DNA of 8,461 nt from the NCBI GenBank assembly GCA_041486365.1, contig JBGPLH010000127.1:1-8461 (forward strand), written 5' to 3'. Shown piece by piece: positions 1-8,461 of the stretch; position 1 is the stretch's first letter; each line of letters starts with the position of its first letter. Origin of the DNA: JBGPLH01 sp041486365 [NCBI: Thermodesulfobacteriota bacterium]. GTDB taxonomy: Bacteria; JAUYMQ01. Position numbers and translations under genes: made by a program. The notes beneath the pieces are model-generated. The model was not told where the DNA came from, ran no database searches, and saw nothing but the letters and a program-made list of their open reading frames with translations.

Positions 1-1229
1 AGGCGGGCCAGGGCCTTCGTCACCTCGAGGTCCGCCTTCCGGATACCCTCGTACAGGCCGTCATCGATCCGGATCCCCCGAAGGCGCGCTTCGGCCTCCC
101 GCGCCTCCGCGACCGCCCGATCGATGTGACCCCTGCGCTCCTCGAAGTCGGCCAGATCGTGCTCGTCGCGGCGGAAATTGAAGTCCTCGTTCCGGAGGAG
201 ATGCAGGCGCCGCGCGGATTCCTGTCGGGCCTGCGCTTTCGACAGGGCCTCCTGGGCCTGATCGAGACCGCGGATCGCGTCGTGCAGCGCCGGGGCGGCC
301 GCCTGGAGATCTTCGGCGATCGACGCGCGATCGCGCTCCGCGCGCGCCAGCTCCGCGACGATGCGATCGCGCTCCCCTACCGCGTCCGCGGAAAGCTTCA
401 TCTGCTTCAGCGCCGCATCCCGCTTCGCCTGGAGCTTCTCCAGATCGCTCTTGAGCCCCGCGACCCCCTGCCGGTCCGCCTCGCGCTGCTCCGCGATCCC
501 GATCTGCCCGCTGATGCTCCGTCCCATCGTCGCGATGTCGATCGCGAGCCTCGCGCTGAGATCGATGTCCGACTCGAGTCTGCCGAGCTCTTCCCGGAGC
601 CGGTCCGCCTCGGCACGCCGTTCGCCCAGCACGCGGGTTGCCTCTGCGAGCTCCTTCTTTTCCTTACCCGTGTCCGTGAAGTATCGGAGGAACTCCTTCT
701 CGGCCTTCTCGTAAAGGCTCTCCTCCCGCGGGCCGCTCGTGGAACCGCCCGCCGCGACATCGAGCGCGCGCGAGAGGGCGGTCTGATCTCGGAGATCCAA
801 GGGATCGATCCCCCGGCCCTGCTCGATCCGGAGGGCCTTCCAGAGGCTCAGATCGACGGTCTCCTCGAGGATGGCGCGCGCGCGGTCGTGGGCCTCGCGG
901 CCCGTCCAGTCCTCGGCCTTTGGCCGGGAGACGTGGAGCCGCGTCGCCTTGTCCTTGTGAAAACGCTTGAAGTAGGTGAAGGCGTACGAGCCCGTCTCGA
1001 CGTCAATCTCGATCTCGGCGCCGGCGTCCCGGTGCACCGGCTTGATCGCCTTGATCTCCTGTTTCGAGGTGCTGTCGAGGTGATCGAAGATCACGTCGAT
1101 CGCCTCCGCGAGGCTCGATTTTCCGATCTCGTTCGGACCGGCGACAAGGGTGATGCCCGTGGGCGCGAAGCGCACCTCGCGCTCGTCCGTGCCGCGGTAG
1201 TTGCGAAGGCGCACGCGGAGGATTTTCAC
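1..1229 (-). CDS. sbcC: SbcC/YhaN-like AAA ATPase, N-terminal part (runs off left edge)
   Basis: N-terminal 409 codons of an SMC/Rad50-type ATPase, the likely partner of the nuclease encoded just upstream; such complexes process DNA ends and hairpins in the cytoplasm. Seen: an opening beta-strand with LRNYRG, then a Walker A motif GPNEIGKSS at residues 31-39, then a Q-loop-like LRIEQG near residue 138, and after about residue 190 a long stretch rich in E, R, K, A and L that looks like coiled coil. The GPNE-type Walker A is typical of the YhaN-like branch of this family. The C-terminal half, with signature motif and Walker B, lies outside the window. The GTG start is chosen because GTGA overlaps the nuclease stop codon by 4 bp, a GGGAGG ribosome binding site lies 5 nt upstream, and the ATPase fold begins at once. 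Translation is probably coupled to the nuclease gene. Confidence 0.88.
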   Translation of the reverse strand, partial: MKILRVRLRNYRGTDEREVRFAPTGITLVAGPNEIGKSSLAEAIDVIFDHLDSTSKQEIKAIKPVHRDAGAEIEIDVETGSYAFTYFKRFHKDKATRLHVSRPKAEDWTGREAHDRARAILEETVDLSLWKALRIEQGRGIDPLDLRDQTALSRALDVAAGGSTSGPREESLYEKAEKEFLRYFTDTGKEKKELAEATRVLGERRAEADRLREELGRLESDIDLSARLAIDIATMGRSISGQIGIAEQREADRQGVAGLKSDLEKLQAKRDAALKQMKLSADAVGERDRIVAELARAERDRASIAEDLQAAAPALHDAIRGLDQAQEALSKAQARQESARRLHLLRNEDFNFRRDEHDLADFEERRGHIDRAVAEAREAEARLRGIRIDDGLYEGIRKADLEVTKALAR

Positions 1230-2368
1230 GCGGCCCTCCCGGAGAGCCGCAGGAGGAGCGCCAGGGCGTCACGCGCCGTCACTGCGTCGTCCCCGGTCGC
1301 GAGCGCCCTCGTCCGCAGCCGCTCGACGGCCCGGGCGGCGAAGCCCGAAAGGCCGATCTCCGAGAAGTCATCGTCGTCCGGCAGGACGGCGAGATCCGTC
1401 GCACGCCCCCACAGCTCGATGGCGGCGAACAGATCGCGCGTCTCGTCCAGGAACTGATCGAGCCGCGCCTGGAGACGGAGCGAGATCGTCCCGACGAGCC
1501 CGAGCTTCACAATCGTCCGGTCTTTGGCCTCGAGGTTCCGGAGCAAGCGCTCGAGCGACTCGAAATCGGCCTCGCCGTTGAGATCGAACCGGTCCCGCAG
1601 GAGGAATCGCCAGGTTGCCACCTGCCGGGGAGTCGTGCGGACGCCGTCCAGACCCGCCTCGACGATGAGGATCTTTCCGGGATCCTGCTCGTCGTAGTCC
1701 GTGGGCTCGGGCGCGCCCGAGTACCAGATCCGGCCCGAGTCTCCCACCGGCGTGAGTGAGTGGCGATCGCCCAGCGCGAGGTAGTGGATCTGTCCGGCGG
1801 CGACGGTCGCCTCCGCGGCCGCGAGACCGATCAGGGCCGGGTTCTCCGGGTCGGGAGACAGGGTGTTCACCATGCCATGTGCCACGGCAATCCGGATGGT
1901 TCCCCGGGCCGGTTCCAGCCCGGCGCAGGAGGCCGCCACGAGATCCCGGAGGGGCCGCTTGGAGTTCCAGGGGGCGCCGACGATCTCAACGCCCTCGCGG
2001 ACGGGAATCGGGCGGGAGTCCTCTATCACGCGGACGTGGGCGGGCTTCCTCTCGAGGAAGGTGGGAGAGCGGAACACGGAGGCTGCTTCCAGAGGGTCGT
2101 GGTTCCCGGGCAGGAGGTAAACGGGCACGGAGATGGACGCGAGCGCGTCGATCGCGCGAGACACCGTGCGGCGCTCTACATGATTTGTCTCGAAAACGTC
2201 CCCGCAGACCACCACGAACTCGCACTTCTCCTCGGCGGCGATCCGCCCGATCGTCCGGATGGCGTCGGCGCGCGCCTGGGCGAAGCGCGACTGCGCCTCC
2301 TCACCGAGGAAGTGGCGGGTCATGCCGAGTTGCCAGTCGCTGGTGTGGATGAAACGAACCGTGGCCAT
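1226..2368 (-). CDS. sbcD: SbcD/YhaO/Mre11-like metallophosphoesterase (DNA repair exonuclease subunit)
   Basis: A 380-residue calcineurin-like phosphoesterase, expected to be the nuclease subunit of an SbcCD/Mre11-Rad50-like complex with the ATPase encoded next to it. Phosphoesterase motifs appear in order: D11-W-Q13, G56-D57-V-F-E60, G88-N-H-D91, H164 in AHG, and G200-D201-R-H203. The WYSGAPEPTDYDE stretch after the last motif is usual for this branch. Two ligands usually given as histidine in Mre11 are different: Q13 replaces the His of D-x-H and D201 replaces the first His of G-H-x-H. I recall both as common in the YhaO-like subfamily, so this need not mean loss of activity. The length fits the family. 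The start is supported by GGAGGG a few bases upstream on the minus strand. The gene is first in its operon and its stop overlaps the ATPase start. No clear promoter was found. Confidence 0.9.
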   Translation of the reverse strand: MATVRFIHTSDWQLGMTRHFLGEEAQSRFAQARADAIRTIGRIAAEEKCEFVVVCGDVFETNHVERRTVSRAIDALASISVPVYLLPGNHDPLEAASVFRSPTFLERKPAHVRVIEDSRPIPVREGVEIVGAPWNSKRPLRDLVAASCAGLEPARGTIRIAVAHGMVNTLSPDPENPALIGLAAAEATVAAGQIHYLALGDRHSLTPVGDSGRIWYSGAPEPTDYDEQDPGKILIVEAGLDGVRTTPRQVATWRFLLRDRFDLNGEADFESLERLLRNLEAKDRTIVKLGLVGTISLRLQARLDQFLDETRDLFAAIELWGRATDLAVLPDDDDFSEIGLSGFAARAVERLRTRALATGDDAVTARDALALLLRLSGRAA

Positions 2369-3000: not shown

Positions 3001-3075
3001 ATGAAGACGCTTCTGGCTGTGCTCCTTTGTTCGGTTTGCCTCCTTTGTCTCCCTCCCCGAAATGATTGCCTTTGA
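3001..3075 (+). CDS. Possible 24-residue leader or signal-like peptide
   Basis: The frame starting ATG AAG ACG encodes MKTLLAVLLCSVCLLCLPPR and four further residues. It is a basic start, a leucine/valine/cysteine hydrophobic core and a short polar tail, much like a lipoprotein or signal peptide with nothing behind it. It lies 68 bp upstream of the first transposase and in the same direction. The upstream ribosome binding site is weak (gcgaggcgaaag). It could be a translated leader of the transposase mRNA, the 5' remnant of an exported-protein gene cut by a rearrangement, or chance. It has no homologue that I recognise. Confidence 0.25.
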   Translation: MKTLLAVLLCSVCLLCLPPRNDCL

Positions 3076-3101
3076 TTGAGAGGAAATGGGCAGAGGAATT
3101 G

Positions 3102-3139
3102 CCTCCTCGATGATGGCGGGGCGACCCGTCGAGAGGAGG
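3102..3139 (+). promoter_or_regulatory. Hairpin that can mask the transposase 1 ribosome binding site
   Basis: CCTCCTC at 3102-3108 is perfectly complementary to GAGGAGG at 3133-3139, which is the Shine-Dalgarno tract of the transposase gene starting at 3144. Inside the loop, CGGG (3117-3120) and CCCG (3125-3128) pair around a GCGA tetraloop, so a two-stem structure is possible. If formed in the mRNA it would hide the start site and keep transposase levels low, similar in principle to the translational control known for IS10 and other elements. The complementarity is seen; the regulatory role is inferred. Confidence 0.4.
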
Positions 3140-3143
3140 AGAG

Positions 3144-4628
3144 ATGGAAGAGGACAGGAGGCGAGAGGGAGAAGAGGACGGTGAAGAGACAGCGACCGAA
3201 GAGGAGCAAGCTGCAGGCCGAGTCGATGAATGCGACCTGGCTTCCCCGCTGAGCGAAGGGCGACCCACCGACGACCCACGCGAAGAATTCCCGGAGGAGA
3301 TCCGGGGACCCACCGAGGAGGAGCTGCACTCGGAGGATGAGACAGCGCCCTCCATTCCCAATCTGACGGCCCGCAGACCCGGACGACGGCTGGTGAAGCC
3401 GGAGAGCGCCCCGCGGGTATCTCTCACATCGCAGCAGCGGCTTTTGCTCCTGGACACCTGGCGACGAAGCGCGCTTCCGGCCGGCGATTTCGGATCGCTG
3501 GTCGGGGTGAGCAAGCACACGCTGTACGCGTGGAAGAAGCGCTTCGAGGAGGGCGGGCCGGCGGGCCTTGAGGACCAGCCGCGGGGAGCGCCCGGGGGAA
3601 GCCGTGTGCCGGAGGTCACGCGGCGGGCGATTGTGATGATGAAGCAGGACAACCCCGAGTGGGGATGCCAGCGAATAGCCGACGTGCTGGCGCGAGCGCA
3701 GGGCCTTGGGGCGAGCGCCAAGGCGGTGGCGGGGGTGCTTCACGAGGAGGGCTACGAGCTGGAGGATATCCCGACCCGCCCGCATCGGGACCATGTCCGG
3801 ACCTTCGAGCGGGCGCGACCGAACGAGATGTGGCAGACGGATCTCTTCACGTTTGTGCTCAAGCGACAAAACCGTCGCGTGCACCTGGTGGCCTTCATGG
3901 ATGATCACAGCCGCTTCCTCGTGGGCTACGGGCTTCACGCCACGGCGAGCGCGGCGCTGGTGATCGAGGCGTTTCGAGCGGCGATTGCTTCCTACCACGC
4001 CCCCGGGGAGATCCTGACGGATAACGGGAGCCAGTATGTCACGTGGCGAGGCAAGAGCGCGTTTGCGCGGGAGTGCGAGACGCGGGGGGTGAAGCATCTG
4101 GTGGCCGCGCCGCGGCACCCGCGGACGCTGGGGAAGATCGAGCGCTTCTGGGGGACGCTGTGGCGGGAGTGCCTGAGTGCGGCGGTGTTTCTGGATCTGG
4201 AGGATGCGCGAAGGCGGGTGGGGCTCTTCATTGATCACTACAACTTCCAGCGCCCGCACCAGGGGCTTGGGGGGTCGGTGGTGCCGGCGGACCGGTATTT
4301 CGGGCAGGCCGAGGAGGTGCTCAAGACGCTTAAGGCGCGGGTGGCGGCCAATGCGCGGGAGCTGGCCTGCAACGGGATCCCCCGGGAGCCGCTGTACCTC
4401 ACGGGGCAGCTCGGGGGCAAGAGCTTCAGCGTGCACGCGGAGGGGGAGCGGGTGATCCTGACAAAGGAAGGGGAGGGGCGTCGGGAGATCGAGTGGAACC
4501 CACCGGAGAGGAAGATGGCTCCCGAGCCGCTGTGTCCTCAGGGCGCGCCTCGTGGGGAAGACGGAAACGAGGAGCCGCCGTCTCCCGGGACGTCGGCGAT
4601 CGATGCGCTGCCGCGAGGTGAGCGATGA
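3144..4628 (+). CDS. DDE transposase 1, IS481/rve-like (TnpA1)
   Basis: A 494-residue cut-and-paste-type transposase with an RNase H-like integrase core. Order of parts: a very acidic, probably disordered N-terminus (about residues 1-75), a first helix-turn-helix around 95-140 (LVGVSKHTLYAWKKRF), a second around 170-205 (NPEWGCQRIADVL), the catalytic core, and a C-terminal beta-rich segment around 380-452. Catalytic residues are D233 (WQTDLF), D293 (LTDNGSQY) and E333 (GKIERFWGTL), with 39 residues between the last two, followed by the usual HYNFQRPHQGL. The acidic head and proline-rich tail make it longer than simple IS481 transposases. The start has a strong AGGAGGAG site. The stop overlaps the next gene by ATGA. 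All catalytic residues are intact, so it could be active. An alternative label is a generic rve integrase. Confidence 0.93.
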   Translation: MEEDRRREGEEDGEETATEEEQAAGRVDECDLASPLSEGRPTDDPREEFPEEIRGPTEEELHSEDETAPSIPNLTARRPGRRLVKPESAPRVSLTSQQRLLLLDTWRRSALPAGDFGSLVGVSKHTLYAWKKRFEEGGPAGLEDQPRGAPGGSRVPEVTRRAIVMMKQDNPEWGCQRIADVLARAQGLGASAKAVAGVLHEEGYELEDIPTRPHRDHVRTFERARPNEMWQTDLFTFVLKRQNRRVHLVAFMDDHSRFLVGYGLHATASAALVIEAFRAAIASYHAPGEILTDNGSQYVTWRGKSAFARECETRGVKHLVAAPRHPRTLGKIERFWGTLWRECLSAAVFLDLEDARRRVGLFIDHYNFQRPHQGLGGSVVPADRYFGQAEEVLKTLKARVAANARELACNGIPREPLYLTGQLGGKSFSVHAEGERVILTKEGEGRREIEWNPPERKMAPEPLCPQGAPRGEDGNEEPPSPGTSAIDALPRGER

Positions 4629-5104
4629 GCGGGGCGGAAGGGAAGAAGAAGAGCCGCGGTCCGCAGGGCCCGCGCATTGGCGGGGGGACGCTTGAGGGGC
4701 GGCTGCTGGCGGCGGCGATCCTCGAAGTGCTCGCGGGGATGCGCACGCCGACCGATGCGGCGCGCGCGTTGACGGTGAGCGTGCCGCGGTACTACGCGCT
4801 GGAGGCGCGGGGGCTTGAGGGGCTGGTCCTGGCCTGCGAGCCGCGAGGAAGGAAGGGGCGGCGAAGAAATCCGGAACGGGAGGTGGAGCGGCTGCGCAAG
4901 GAGGTGGAGCGACTGGAAAAGGAGTGCGCCCGGAGGCAGGCATTGCTGCGGGCGGCGAGCCGCGCGGTGGGCCTTGGACCTGCTTCGGCCAAGCCCGACG
5001 GGAAGCGGCGACGCCGGCCAGTGGTGCGAGCACTGAAGGCGGCCGGGGTGTTACGCTCGGGTCCTGAGAGTGGCGCGGAGAAGGCTGAGTCCTCTGCGTC
5101 GTGA
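4625..5104 (+). CDS. Small HTH plus coiled-coil protein 1 of the element
   Basis: A 159-residue basic protein. Residues 24-66 resemble a helix-turn-helix (LEVLAGMRTPTDAARALTVS followed by PRYYALEA), then an arginine/glycine linker (RGRKGRRR), a predicted coiled coil at about 83-115 with regular E/R/L heptads, and a basic, low-complexity tail. This build resembles the OrfA proteins of IS3-type elements: DNA binding at the element end plus a zipper for assembly with a transposase. It starts inside the ATGA overlap with transposase 1, so translation is probably coupled. It is clearly related to the next small protein (see findings). A role as accessory or targeting subunit is inferred; no enzymatic motif is visible. 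A transcription regulator of the operon is the other possibility. Confidence 0.75.
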   Translation: MSGAEGKKKSRGPQGPRIGGGTLEGRLLAAAILEVLAGMRTPTDAARALTVSVPRYYALEARGLEGLVLACEPRGRKGRRRNPEREVERLRKEVERLEKECARRQALLRAASRAVGLGPASAKPDGKRRRRPVVRALKAAGVLRSGPESGAEKAESSAS

Positions 5105-5122
5105 GCGTGAGGGGGAGAGGCG

Positions 5123-5512
5123 ATGGCGCGACCGCCGATGGGACCGCGGGTGGTGGAAGGGATGGAGGGGACGAGGGGAGCCAGGCTCAGGCTGCAGATG
5201 ATCCTCGAGACGCTCTCGGGGGCGCGAAGCGTGGGAGAGGCGAGTCGGGAGCTGGGGGTGAACGAGGCGCGGTTTTACGAGTTGAGAGCGGAGGCCTTGT
5301 CCGGAGCGCTGTCGCGGCTGGAGCTGCGGCGTGCGGGGCGGCCGGCGAAGCAGGTGGCGAAGGAGGAGGGAGAGGTCGAGGCGCTCAGGGCACAGATGAG
5401 GGAGCTGAGGCTTGAGCTACAGGGGTCGAGGGTGCGGGAGGAAATAGCGATTGCGATGCCGCATCTGCTCAAGCGGCGGGAGGAGGGAGGAAAAAAAACG
5501 AAGAGGCGGTGA
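5123..5512 (+). CDS. Small HTH plus coiled-coil protein 2, OrfA-like
   Basis: A 129-residue protein with the same plan as its upstream neighbour. It has a helix-turn-helix at about 24-58 (LSGARSVGEASRELGVNEAR, then FYEL), a basic linker (RRAGRPAKQ) and a coiled coil at about 82-107 with leucine spacing, ending in a lysine/arginine tail. The ATG at 5123 is preceded by GGGGGAGAGG and lies 18 nt after the previous stop. Near its 3' end an in-phase A_AAA_AAA heptamer allows -1 slippage into the frame of transposase 2, which begins at a GTG overlapping this stop codon. It therefore matches IS3-family OrfA in build, position and frame relation. Role inferred: DNA recognition and multimerisation with the downstream transposase, free or as part of a fusion. 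Confidence 0.75.
   Translation: MARPPMGPRVVEGMEGTRGARLRLQMILETLSGARSVGEASRELGVNEARFYELRAEALSGALSRLELRRAGRPAKQVAKEEGEVEALRAQMRELRLELQGSRVREEIAIAMPHLLKRREEGGKKTKRR
5478..5498 (+). promoter_or_regulatory. Candidate programmed -1 ribosomal frameshift site
   Basis: In the frame of the small protein the codons read GGA AAA AAA ACG, which places an A_AAA_AAA slippery heptamer at 5491-5497 in correct phase. The run is eight A's in an otherwise very GC-rich gene. Directly upstream is a Shine-Dalgarno-like purine tract (GGGAGGAGGGAGG, 5478-5490), a kind of stimulator known from dnaX and some IS elements. A shift of -1 enters the frame of transposase 2, which is open from 5416 onward. The predicted fusion is 535 residues. 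The short spacing between SD and heptamer is not the dnaX optimum, so efficiency is uncertain. The tract could instead serve initiation at the GTG of transposase 2. Confidence 0.5.
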
Positions 5513-6729
5513 ACGCTCATCGATGCGCGACGACGCGGGCCGAGCGGCGGCACGTGCGGCGGCTGGAGCGGGCATGGGAGCTGCGAGAGGAAAGGAAGGT
5601 GCGTGGGCATCGGCGGGTGACGGGCTGGCAGCGAGCGCGGAGGGATGGGGAGCGGCGGGTGCGGGCGAGCGCACTGGCGTACCGGCGGTGGGCGATGCGG
5701 CAGGGAGTGATGCCGGAGGAGGTGGCCGCGCGGCTGGGCATGTCGCCCCGGACGCTATCGCGATGGGCGGGGCGGTGGCGCGTGGAACGCCTGGGAGCGG
5801 CTGCCCGGGGGCGAAGGATGCGTAGAGCGGACTTGGAGACGCGACGCCTGATCCTGGGCGTGCTCGCCTACGTGGGCCCCGGCGTGAGCATCGTGCTCCT
5901 GCGGGAATTTTTCCCCGAAGTGGCCCGCCGGGAGCTGGAGGACCTGCGGCGGCGTTACCGGAGAGCGTATCGCATGCGCAGGAGCCTCCTGGTCCACGTG
6001 CTGCACTGGAAGCGCGCGGGTGCGGTCTGGGCGATGGACTTCAAGAAGCCGCCCCTTCCGGTAGATGGCCTGTACCCGAAGGTGATGGCCACGCGGGATC
6101 TGGGAAGCAGCGATCAGCTACTGGGGCTTCCGGCCCTGGACGAGACGGGTCAGACGGTGCGGGACGCCCTGGAAGCGCTCTTCAAGGAGCATGGCCCGCC
6201 TCTGGTTATCAAGTCGGATCAGGGCTCGGCCTTCGTCGCTGAGGAGACGAGGGAATTTCTCCAGGGGCACGGGGTGCAGCTGCTGCTATCCCCACCGCGC
6301 CTGCCCTCCTACAATGGGGCCTGCGAAGCAGGGATCGGCTCGATGGCGACCCGGGCGCACCACGCCTCGGCGAGAAACGGGCGACCCGGGGAGTGGACCT
6401 GCGACGACCTGGAGCTGGCACGGCTGGAGGCAAACGAGACCGCGAGGCCGTGGGGGATGAACGGGCCCACGCCGGAGGAGGTCTGGCAAGGTCGGACCCC
6501 TATCACCGAGGAAGAGCGCGCCTTGTTTGCGAGGACGGTCGTGACGATGCGCGAGGAGGCTCGCCGACGTCGAGAGAAGGCGGCGATCATCGAGCTTGCG
6601 CGGCACCGGGAAGATGCGATAGAGCGTGAGGCAATCTCCCGCGCGCTCGTGGCGTGCGGGATTCTTAAGCTCAGAAGGAGGCGAATTCCTCCACCTATTA
6701 AACTCGTCAGTCGGGCCATAATTTCGTAG
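5509..6729 (+). CDS. DDE transposase 2, DD35E (OrfB-like, TnpA2)
   Basis: A 406-residue second transposase, distinct from the first. It has a very basic N-terminus, a helix-turn-helix at about 66-92 (PEEVAARLGMSPRTLSRW), then an RNase H-like core with D177 (VWAMDF), D237 (IKSDQGSAF) and E273 (NGACEAGIGSM). There are exactly 35 residues between the last two, as in IS3 and retroviral integrases. After the core comes PGEWTCDDLELARLEANETA and GPTPEEVWQ, then an arginine-rich helical tail. Catalytic residues are intact. The GTG start overlaps the previous stop as GTGA, so expression is by reinitiation and/or -1 frameshifting upstream. The frame is also open back to 5416. Related proteins are usually labelled simply as integrase catalytic region. 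Its use alongside a second DDE enzyme in one operon is the unusual point. Confidence 0.92.
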   Translation: MNAHRCATTRAERRHVRRLERAWELREERKVRGHRRVTGWQRARRDGERRVRASALAYRRWAMRQGVMPEEVAARLGMSPRTLSRWAGRWRVERLGAAARGRRMRRADLETRRLILGVLAYVGPGVSIVLLREFFPEVARRELEDLRRRYRRAYRMRRSLLVHVLHWKRAGAVWAMDFKKPPLPVDGLYPKVMATRDLGSSDQLLGLPALDETGQTVRDALEALFKEHGPPLVIKSDQGSAFVAEETREFLQGHGVQLLLSPPRLPSYNGACEAGIGSMATRAHHASARNGRPGEWTCDDLELARLEANETARPWGMNGPTPEEVWQGRTPITEEERALFARTVVTMREEARRRREKAAIIELARHREDAIEREAISRALVACGILKLRRRRIPPPIKLVSRAIIS

Positions 6730-7159
6730 GGGGCACAACTTCGATGCGACTCGTTTTCTTAGCACCGGTCATTTCGGCGATCTTGGGCTAAGGGATATTT
6801 CATTTTTCGGTGGGCTTGGCGCGGGTAGTAACTACGAGTCAGGTTTATCAGCAAGTCGTAGCCTGGTGCACACGGGTACTTCATCGCCCGTGCAGTTTGG
6901 TACTATTCTCGAGGCGGGTGTTCCAGGATACGTCGGTGGAGGAACCGCGACATGGATAGGAATTTCTTCGTTGTCTACTGATCTTTCTGTAAAAGGATAT
7001 GTAGGTGGCGGATCGTTTGCATGCTTCTGTTTTCATGCGACGATCGATAGGAACGCGCTATATGGTGGAGTCAACTGGATTGGAACAACTCTTGCGTCAC
7101 CATACGGACCTCAACGTCCACCATATCGAGGATATGGATATCCTCCGGGTGTTCCATGA
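6722..7159 (+). pseudogene. Possible 3' remnant of a Gly/Ser/Thr-rich (RHS-like?) protein gene
   Basis: The frame is open from just after TAA at 6719-6721 to TGA at 7157-7159, without a good ATG or ribosome binding site; the only in-frame start of note is a GTG at 6866. The translation is rich in G, S, T and aromatic residues and contains two similar units, VPGYVGGGTATW and VKGYVGGGSFACF, then ends in a proline/tyrosine-rich tail. This resembles the glycine-rich strands near the C-terminus of some RHS or other polymorphic-toxin proteins, but I recognise no family with confidence. The frame reaches into or beyond the presumed right end of the mobile element, which would explain a missing 5' part. 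It may equally be a chance open frame. GC content is well below that of the element. Confidence 0.3.
6760..6768 (+). repeat. Candidate target-site duplication, right copy
   Basis: TAGCACCGG in direct orientation with the copy at 2660-2668. It lies 31 bp after the stop codon of transposase 2 and at the transition to lower-GC sequence. The same caution applies: the inner flanks (CAGGAGTAGCGAG on the left, AGAAAACGAGTCG as the reverse complement on the right) share only CGAG(T) and do not form a convincing inverted repeat. Confidence 0.3.
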
Positions 7160-7211
7160 ACATAAAGAAAAGGTGCTATCAAATTATTACGAGGAAAGCG
7201 TACATTGCACG

Positions 7212-7529
7212 ATGGCTAAAATACTGATAGGGATATGGTTTCCAGTACTACTCGCATCCGCTCCGATCGGGATGACGCTGCTGTCGGTCTTGTTTCATCG
7301 ACTGAAGGCACGATATCCAGAGGTTTATGCATCTCTCGGATCGCCAGGGGTGTTTTATAATAACAGCCTGAGAAGCAACTGGCTGTTTCTCAGATTTATC
7401 TGGGGAAGTCACTATAAAGCGCTTCAGAGTAGAACGGTAAATAGGTTATGCATGGTTCTAAAAATATATTCGATTCTGTCCATGGGATGGGTTCTAATGT
7501 TTTTTATTTTGATTAAGTTTGCGCGATGA
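7212..7529 (+). CDS. Small two-helix membrane protein A (tandem paralogue 1)
   Basis: A 105-residue protein with a hydrophobic segment at about 4-27, a conserved middle and a second hydrophobic segment at about 84-102. The middle reads YPEVYASLGSP, then NNSLRSNWLFLRFIW. The frame extends upstream to a GTG at 7005, but the ATG at 7212 is preferred. From there, length and register match the downstream paralogue without gaps, and the first membrane segment begins immediately. A GAGGAAAG element lies 13 nt upstream, which is rather far. The build loosely recalls small UspB-like inner-membrane proteins, though this is only a resemblance. Function unknown. A role as an immunity protein for a membrane-acting toxin is a speculative alternative suggested by the tandem duplication and the remnant upstream. 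GC is lower than in the flanking transposons. Confidence 0.7.
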   Translation: MAKILIGIWFPVLLASAPIGMTLLSVLFHRLKARYPEVYASLGSPGVFYNNSLRSNWLFLRFIWGSHYKALQSRTVNRLCMVLKIYSILSMGWVLMFFILIKFAR

Positions 7530-7660: not shown

Positions 7661-7981
7661 ATGAGTTATAAATTTGCACTAACTTGGTTTTGCACTCTAT
7701 TCGTAGGCGCTATAGTTGGTAATATCTTGTCGGCACGAATACAGCGTCGTATTTCTAGAATGTATCCGGATGCATACAAAGCAATGGGGTCGCCTTCATT
7801 TTTCTGGAATGCTTCCCCCGCGAACGGCTTAAGATTTCTTAGGTTTTTGTGGTTTTTGGACAAGAGTAATCTAGATAAGGAAACGATCAAACTTTGCACA
7901 ACGGTCAAGACGTACCAGATTGCCTATCTAGTATGGTTCCTTATCCCGTTCATTGTCTTAATCTGTTTGTACTTGGCATGA
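7661..7981 (+). CDS. Small two-helix membrane protein B (tandem paralogue 2)
   Basis: A 106-residue protein with the same plan as its upstream neighbour. It has an N-terminal membrane segment at about 4-26, the conserved YPDAYKAMGSPSFFWNAS and LRFLRFLW region at residues 35-64, and a C-terminal membrane segment at about 85-104. An ungapped alignment with protein A from residue 1 to 64 gives 22 identities by eye, including YP, Y, GSP, F, N, S, FLRF and W. The ATG is directly preceded by an in-frame TAA that closes a 13-codon mini-frame starting at 7619, so the start is well bounded upstream. The ribosome binding site is weak. It lies 131 bp after the stop of protein A and may share its transcript. 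Function unknown. Confidence 0.75.
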   Translation: MSYKFALTWFCTLFVGAIVGNILSARIQRRISRMYPDAYKAMGSPSFFWNASPANGLRFLRFLWFLDKSNLDKETIKLCTTVKTYQIAYLVWFLIPFIVLICLYLA

Positions 7982-8129: not shown

Positions 8130-8461
8130 ATGAGGGCCGTATTCATCCTGCTTGGACACCTCCTGACGACGATCGCTAGGCTCCTCCGGCCTGGCGGCGC
8201 GCGCGCCATCGTTGCCGAGAGCGTTCTCCTGAAACAGCAGCTCTTGGTCGTCGGCCGGTCTCGCCATCGGGCTCCGAACCTTTCCCCTCTCGATCGATTC
8301 CTCTTTGGCTTCTGGTCACTCTTCCTCGGCGAGCGACGCATCCGACGGGTGGCGGTAATTCTCAAGCCATCGACGCTTTTGAGCTTTCACGATGCCCTCG
8401 TGAACCGGAAGTACCGACTGCTCTTCACGCCCCGGCGGCGGGGGAAGCCCGGCCCCAAGGG
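8130..8461 (+). CDS. Integrase-core transposase, N-terminal part (runs off right edge)
   Basis: The first 110 codons of a third transposase. The translation opens with a hydrophobic/basic stretch (MRAVFILLGHLLTTIARLLR), then VAESVLLKQQLLVV, RSRHRAPNLSPLDRFLFGFW, LFLGERRIRRVAVILKPSTL, LSFHDALVNRKYRLLF and RRRGKPGPKG. This is the characteristic N-terminal region of a family of about 350-residue integrase-core (rve) transposases, and RRGKPGPKG normally leads into the helix-turn-helix before the DDE core. The catalytic part is outside the window, so intactness is unknown. The ATG fits the usual start of the family. The nearest SD-like CGGAGG, at 8099-8104, is too far away to be decisive. It is not closely related to either transposase in the four-gene operon. 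Confidence 0.82.
   Translation, partial: MRAVFILLGHLLTTIARLLRPGGARAIVAESVLLKQQLLVVGRSRHRAPNLSPLDRFLFGFWSLFLGERRIRRVAVILKPSTLLSFHDALVNRKYRLLFTPRRRGKPGPK

Follow-up and report, generated by a model that had tools for sequence, protein, structure and literature searches.

A conserved insertion sequence with two different DDE transposases and a proposed asymmetric assembly on its ends

The 8,461-nucleotide contig JBGPLH010000127.1 of JBGPLH01 sp041486365, a bacterium assigned to the Thermodesulfobacteriota (assembly GCA_041486365.1), was analyzed over its whole length, which we refer to as the window. It contains an insertion sequence (IS) with four genes on the same strand, here called p1 to p4 (Table 1), that overlap by 4 bp at the p1/p2 (ATGA) and p3/p4 (GTGA) junctions and leave a gap of 18 bp between p2 and p3. 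An original prediction, made from the sequence alone, had described these overlapping or nearly abutting open reading frames (ORFs) as parts of a mobile element that encodes two different DDE enzymes together with two paralogous small partners of DNA-binding type. The recurrence of the set, its shared ends and its mobile copies all support this description, which was correct but understated; the ends of the element at 3046 and 6737 had escaped it. Both p1 and p4 match the Pfam domain rve (6e-19 and 1.5e-11, respectively), their catalytic residues are exactly those that had been named, and the two proteins are related as distant paralogues (22% identity at an hhalign probability of 97.8%). The small proteins p2 and p3 align at 36% identity; p3 matches HTH_Tnp_1 (Pfam, 2.6e-7) and p2 gave a weak match to an NCBIfam IS3 model (0.0047).

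Table 1. Features of the two-transposase element in the window (HTH, helix-turn-helix; aa, amino acids).
Feature	Position	Strand	Description	Basis
Whole element	3046..6737	+	3692 bp, TGT...ACA	Ends set by comparison with relatives bounded by two 99.95% identical copies
Left terminal inverted repeat	3046..3112	+	About 65 bp, imperfect	End alignment
Left inner dyad	3093..3105	+	GAGG-AATTG-CCTC, 38 bp upstream of p1; candidate dimer binding site	Sequence
p1	3144..4628	+	DDE transposase, IS481-like, 494 aa; acidic N-terminus, HTH, RNase-H core, C-terminal beta strands	D233 D293 E333
p2	4625..5104	+	Small HTH/coiled-coil-type protein, p3 paralogue, 159 aa	ORF and alignment with p3
p3	5123..5512	+	Small HTH_Tnp_1 protein, OrfA-like, 129 aa	Pfam match
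Open p4 frame upstream of GTG	5416..5508	+	Overlaps p3; p4 in -1 frame	Frame analysis
A8 run near p3 end	5491..5498	+	Probable slippage/frameshift site joining p3 to p4	A-run survey
p4	5509..6729	+	Second DDE transposase, OrfB-like, 406 aa; model without C-terminal beta barrel	D177 D237 E273
Right terminal inverted repeat	6671..6737	-	About 65 bp, imperfect, overlaps p4 end	End alignment
Right inner dyad	6677..6692	-	GGAGG-AATTCG-CCTCC; candidate binding site	Sequence

That the four genes belong to a real, mobile and conserved two-transposase IS is well supported. In one genome (G179) we found two copies of 4286 bp that are 99.95% identical and lie between unrelated flanks, and the identity starts exactly at TGTG and stops exactly at CACA. 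Since near-identical copies with exact TGT/ACA borders sit at unrelated sites, the set can be taken as a single mobile unit. A second pair of copies, in G248, has the same left border and is 98.9% identical over 3760 bp; one of the two is decayed and cut by the contig end. The contigs L053 and L062 start or stop at the border of the element or at most one base from it. Extraction of full elements and alignment of their ends, as the prediction had recommended, gave imperfect inverted repeats of ca. 65 bp with TGT...ACA tips, one pair per four-gene set.

The four-gene order is not specific to this contig and recurs in Planctomycetota and Verrucomicrobiota. A profile search with p1 (E <= 1e-70) in 392 Planctomycetota genomes found 30 places in 23 genomes, and at 28 of them the small gene or genes and p4 followed directly behind p1 on the same strand (one of these sets, L130, is decayed). 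At the remaining two places (G222 and G213) the contig stops after the first small gene, i.e., p1 was never found without p4 where the contig continued. The complete order p1-p2-p3-p4 in one orientation was present at 17 places in 14 genomes, with the p4 of L064 broken by a stop. Searching with p4, for which mostly at most four candidates were scored per genome, matched 77 of the 392 genomes at E <= 1e-3, many of these being generic rve matches. At E <= 1e-40 there were 21 p4 places, 17 of them with p1 upstream (partial in G001) and one (G192) on a contig that runs out after p2. The three p4 places without p1 are none of them intact (G202 has an internal stop, G077 and G122 are partial). We distinguish sub-family I, the window type with four genes, sub-family II, with p1, one small gene and p4, and sub-family III, a divergent four-gene form in G234. 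Among 240 Verrucomicrobiota genomes p4 was matched in six (1e-30); at three loci (L151, L152 and L153) p1 is followed by two small genes and then by p4, L150 is a fourth locus with the set, and L149 and L154 are fragments.

Some relatives are decayed (L130, L057 and the p4 of L064), as might be expected of a decayed or chance cluster of four genes. The intact frames, the conserved order and the near-identical mobile copies argue otherwise, and the recurrence of the unit refutes this explanation, to which we give practically no credence. A different possibility is that two once separate ISs were fused and that each enzyme acts independently, and redundantly, on the shared ends. The distant paralogy of p1 and p4 and the duplication of the small genes would agree with it, but there is a single inverted-repeat pair, p1 never stands alone (28/28), the p4 places lacking p1 are not intact and the pairing is present in two phyla; we regard this redundancy as very unlikely. 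Nor was support found for the composite of two independently moving ISs that had been considered in the prediction: instead of always moving separately with their own repeats, the two transposases occurred together at 28 of 28 places, within one repeat pair that bounds all four genes, and they have much of their history in common.

Searches elsewhere were carried out as well. No relative was found in 398 Pseudomonadota genomes at 1e-80, with at most four candidates scored per genome, so that this is no proof of absence, nor in any of the seven genomes reached via chance matches, and the searches of small classes met only genomes already present in the Planctomycetota p4 search. A scan of genome contigs with p4 gave no relative; a degenerate-pattern scan then gave eight loci, of which one (L018, Planctomycetota) was a true relative. 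Close relatives were absent from the viral contigs searched and p4 was unmatched in phages. In plasmids, p4 matched five records, each covering 27%, and p1 matched 4246, all below 60% identity and one with a coverage of at least 80%. Two separate observations were made among the relatives. At L150 (1503-2999, minus strand) the HTH domain of the first small protein apparently lies in the p1 frame, although the profile scores are weak. Near two different elements of G155 there is a 493-bp repeat, 89.7% identical (L118:1-493 and L119:2864-3354), and a 183-bp repeat at 95.6%.

The junction between p3 and p4 probably contains a frameshift site. In the relatives, as in the window, the preceding small gene ends within the open frame of p4, and relative to that gene p4 was in -1 in 17 of 17 scorable family I elements and in +1 in 12 of 12 others (outside this count are three rows in which the rule of the script recognized no small gene, and L064, which is broken). 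In 14 of 29 elements the small gene in front of p4 carries a run of A7-A9 among its last 100 nt; 12 of these 14 elements have 63-70% G+C. Over the other 95,506 nt of the elements there were two runs of A7 or longer (Fisher p 6e-20, a value that is too small because the rows are related). This enrichment of A runs at the p3/p4 overlap points to a p3-p4 fusion made by frameshifting, which, judging from these sequences, is likely in the elements with an A run, the window included. OrfA-OrfB fusions produced by slippage on nine, sometimes eight, A are described for IS elements (excerpt of PMC1088944). In L018 (2714-4975, minus strand) a p2-like protein and p4 are naturally fused in one open frame, and a p3-like sequence plus a piece of the p4 N-terminus lies nearby on the plus strand.

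The D-D-E triad is kept in 27 of 27 rows for p1 and in 26 of 27 for p4 (counting L051 and L052, which are copies, and leaving out three short rows), and it is invariant in a 14-row p1 and a 17-row p4 alignment. The dN/dS values of three pairs, a rough estimate over whole open frames, were 0.44, 0.24 and 0.65 for p1 and 0.60, 0.32 and 0.77 for p4, that is, below 1 for both enzymes in all three pairs and higher for p4 in each. When 52 catalytic cores were placed in a tree, p1 and p4 each formed one clade (99/98), p4 with longer branches than p1. Both halves of the tree supported family I as a clade (96/99 and 97/80); family II was one group among p4 (93/89) but unresolved among p1, with a warning of the program about long branches meeting. 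The p1 and p4 distances were correlated (r 0.88, n = 27; within family I r 0.71, p 2e-4, n = 16). By this comparison p1 and p4 share much of their history, more weakly within sub-family II. Retroviral integrases are the closest folds to the AlphaFold model of p4 (pLDDT 83). For p1 the closest folds are TnsB and IstA; its model is of low confidence (pLDDT 63, pTM 0.38) and, unlike that of p4, shows beta strands at the C-terminus.

These data bear on the alternative that only p1 is catalytic and that p4, or p3-p4, descends from a transposase but now serves to regulate or to choose the target. The faster evolution of p4 (longer branches and higher dN/dS in 3/3 pairs), the C-terminal beta strands that p1 has in common with integrases and TnsB, and the loss of one catalytic D in the p4 of L125 are in its favor. 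Its triad, however, is otherwise kept at identities to the window p4 as low as 35% within family I alone, and a frameshift signal is typical of catalytic OrfAB proteins (excerpt of PMC1088944), so that we find a non-catalytic p4 unlikely.

Each terminal repeat has an outer motif, around CGAAA/ACGWAA in families I and II, and the inner dyad (e.g., GGAGG-AATTCG-CCTCC) is found in the window and in several family I relatives. All 20 aligned elements start with TGT and end with ACA, partly by construction since the motif helped to place some ends. The ends were fixed independently in the G179 pair, and the alignment of left and right ends begins at TGT unaided in L053, L054, L059, L062, L064, L118, L123 and L128. 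In 19 of 20 rows (18 of them independent, as L051 and L052 are copies) the left end had one base pair more between tip and motif than the right end, taking as register the best overlay of the left on the right repeat from the tips over positions 9-40, in two-transposase elements only; L127 was a tie between the +1 and +2 registers. The +1 register appears in all three sub-families (11, 7, and 2 rows, respectively). A one-base difference that persists across this divergence suggests different handling of the two ends, as would fit two enzymes, and it favors an asymmetric or end-specific complex.

A DDE transpososome normally has the same enzyme at its two ends, and the length of the target duplication is set by the fixed distance that separates the two equal active sites. 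Here none of 18 elements had an exact duplication of at least 4 bp, and no approximate one (4-45 bp with <25% mismatches) was found in the elements examined. Tests for direct repeats gave p 0.39 with 18 elements and p 0.11 and 0.019 with 19, the last for registers of 18-22 bp, one of several tests and with no convincing single duplication behind it. The flanks can be unrelated truncated genes, malQ and a PHP-type gene at L064 and two different genes both at L051 and at L052 (named by reading, malQ being confirmed by PF02446), and the L064 genome yielded no other malQ fragment. We give slightly better than even chances to the explanation that the duplications of an otherwise ordinary staggered-cut IS were lost by later recombination or adjacent deletions. 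The truncated flanks and the missing malQ fragment agree with it, and there are documented cases of such events and of an IS481 that moved without a duplication (excerpt of PMC11708052). Not one of the elements, on the other hand, showed a duplication by the two measures above, and there is a third option, an IS1202-like reaction without duplication, for which a few single-transposase elements of that family provide a precedent (excerpt of PMC10132070). Because of these precedents we do not claim a new strand-transfer reaction.

Three further approaches to the target site were abandoned. A palindromic target, suggested by the apparent location of L066, L124 and L152 within inverted repeats, was rejected: one test gave p 0.0085 with 18 elements, but later tests with 19 gave p 0.14 and 0.19, and a fold test gave p 0.33. 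A search for an empty site with the right flank of L052 in its own genome found relatives of the flanking transposase, but these were truncated. Frames spanning the joined flanks (67-402 aa, 15 elements) were left unused for lack of a control.

We propose that the element is probably a heteromeric two-transposase IS of the IS481/IS3/IS1202 kind, in which p1 and a p3-p4 frameshift fusion form an asymmetric complex. p1 would be made as a single chain and p3-p4 by slippage at the A8 run, like OrfA-OrfB in many IS elements, with free p3, and perhaps also free p4, made beside the fusion; p2 would be another OrfA-like protein, one that stays unfused. The small proteins may bind the inner dyads of both inverted repeats, the left one being also positioned for regulation of the operon, and p1 and p3-p4 would then assemble on two ends that differ by one base in the spacing between tip and motif. 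We infer the fusion protein, the DNA binding, the need for both active sites and the end-specific roles, and the heteromeric, end-specific complex seems plausible.

Several observations weigh against this proposal. The A run is missing from 15 of 29 elements, and the -1 frame of family I is weak evidence because the ATGA/GTGA overlap itself imposes it, the other groups being in +1. The +1 register of the window wins narrowly (0.41 vs. 0.34 identity), and L152 of Verrucomicrobiota has no clear +1 offset. The p4 of L125 has N for the first D (1/27), the p1 and p4 distances correlate weakly in family II (r 0.29, p 0.09, n = 8), and the p1 model is of low confidence, as mentioned. Given the IS1202-family precedent, a missing duplication need not stem from two enzymes (excerpt of PMC10132070). 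More tentatively, the elements could form a new class of IS with an obligately heteromeric transpososome of two paralogous rve-type DDE enzymes, one of them a frameshift fusion and each assigned to one of two ends that are 1 bp different, where asymmetric joining without the usual fixed stagger would leave no target duplication; we consider this full version rather unlikely.

To our knowledge, each element of the IS481, IS3 and IS1202 families encodes a single DDE enzyme. p1 matches the NCBIfam model transpos_IS481 over the model length at 209.1 bits, below the curated cut-off of 224 bits (60.9 for p4), and the single transposase of IS481 contrasts with p1 and p4 together at 28 of 30 places, the other two being cut by the contig. 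TGT...ACA termini are shared with IS481EU relatives, whose families encode one protein whereas the element has three extra genes, and prokaryotic IS481 duplications are 2-15 bp, mostly 6, as opposed to 0/18 with at least 4 bp here (excerpt of PMC10045372). The transposase of IS1202 is large and TnsB-like, with an HTH, an RNase-H fold and a beta barrel; the family has 5'-TGT ends, and its Acinetobacter members are 1.5 kb long with one transposase and inverted repeats of 24-26 bp (excerpt of PMC10132070). The p1 model nearest to TnsB and the TGT ends resemble this published description, but the elements described here have 3-4 kb, four genes and repeats of ca. 65 bp. Like OrfA-OrfB of IS3, p3-p4 consists of an HTH_Tnp_1 small protein and an rve protein in an overlapping frame, with an A run in 14/29 elements. 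The IS3 OrfB cut-off of 160 bits, however, is reached neither by p4 (58.6) nor by p1 (131.6). p4 does not come near the cut-off of any NCBIfam model that it matches, and compared with IS3 the element has one more complete transposase and one more OrfA-like gene.

In Tn7 and IS21 the DDE enzyme has a partner of another kind: TnsA of Tn7 is an endonuclease-type enzyme and not an rve DDE enzyme, and the partner of IstA in IS21, IstB, is an AAA+ ATPase. The element resembles Tn7 in having two recombinase subunits and in the nearest fold of p1, TnsB, and it resembles IS21 in that one of the folds closest to p1 is IstA, but Pfam and NCBIfam scans identified no TnsA- or TnsC-like protein and no AAA+ ATPase among the four element proteins. 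A literature search, judged from titles and the starts of abstracts and not covering ISfinder, gave no element with two rve-type enzymes. Matches to the phrase "two DDE transposases" turned out to be unrelated in the parts of those papers that were consulted.

With two enzymes and two measurably different ends, in two phyla, the roles of the two active sites should be separable genetically, and the element would test whether target duplication depends on the symmetry of equal active sites. As its parts score under the curated IS481 and IS3 cut-offs, the group may be annotated as unrelated fragments.

Around the element, the gene at 1226-2368 (minus strand) is presumably SbcD-like, by reading, its Pfam match being a calcineurin-like phosphoesterase (PF00149), and what we take by eye for an SbcC-like gene probably continues to window position 1. 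On the right, an ORF at 8130-8461 (plus strand), without a Pfam match and cut by the window end, has a start that recalls, in our opinion, the N-terminus of an integrase-type transposase. Between it and the element, in an A+T-rich stretch, there are two short ORFs without Pfam matches (7005-7529 and 7661-7981, plus strand) that have the common motif YPxxYxxxGSP...FLRF and resemble paralogous small membrane proteins.

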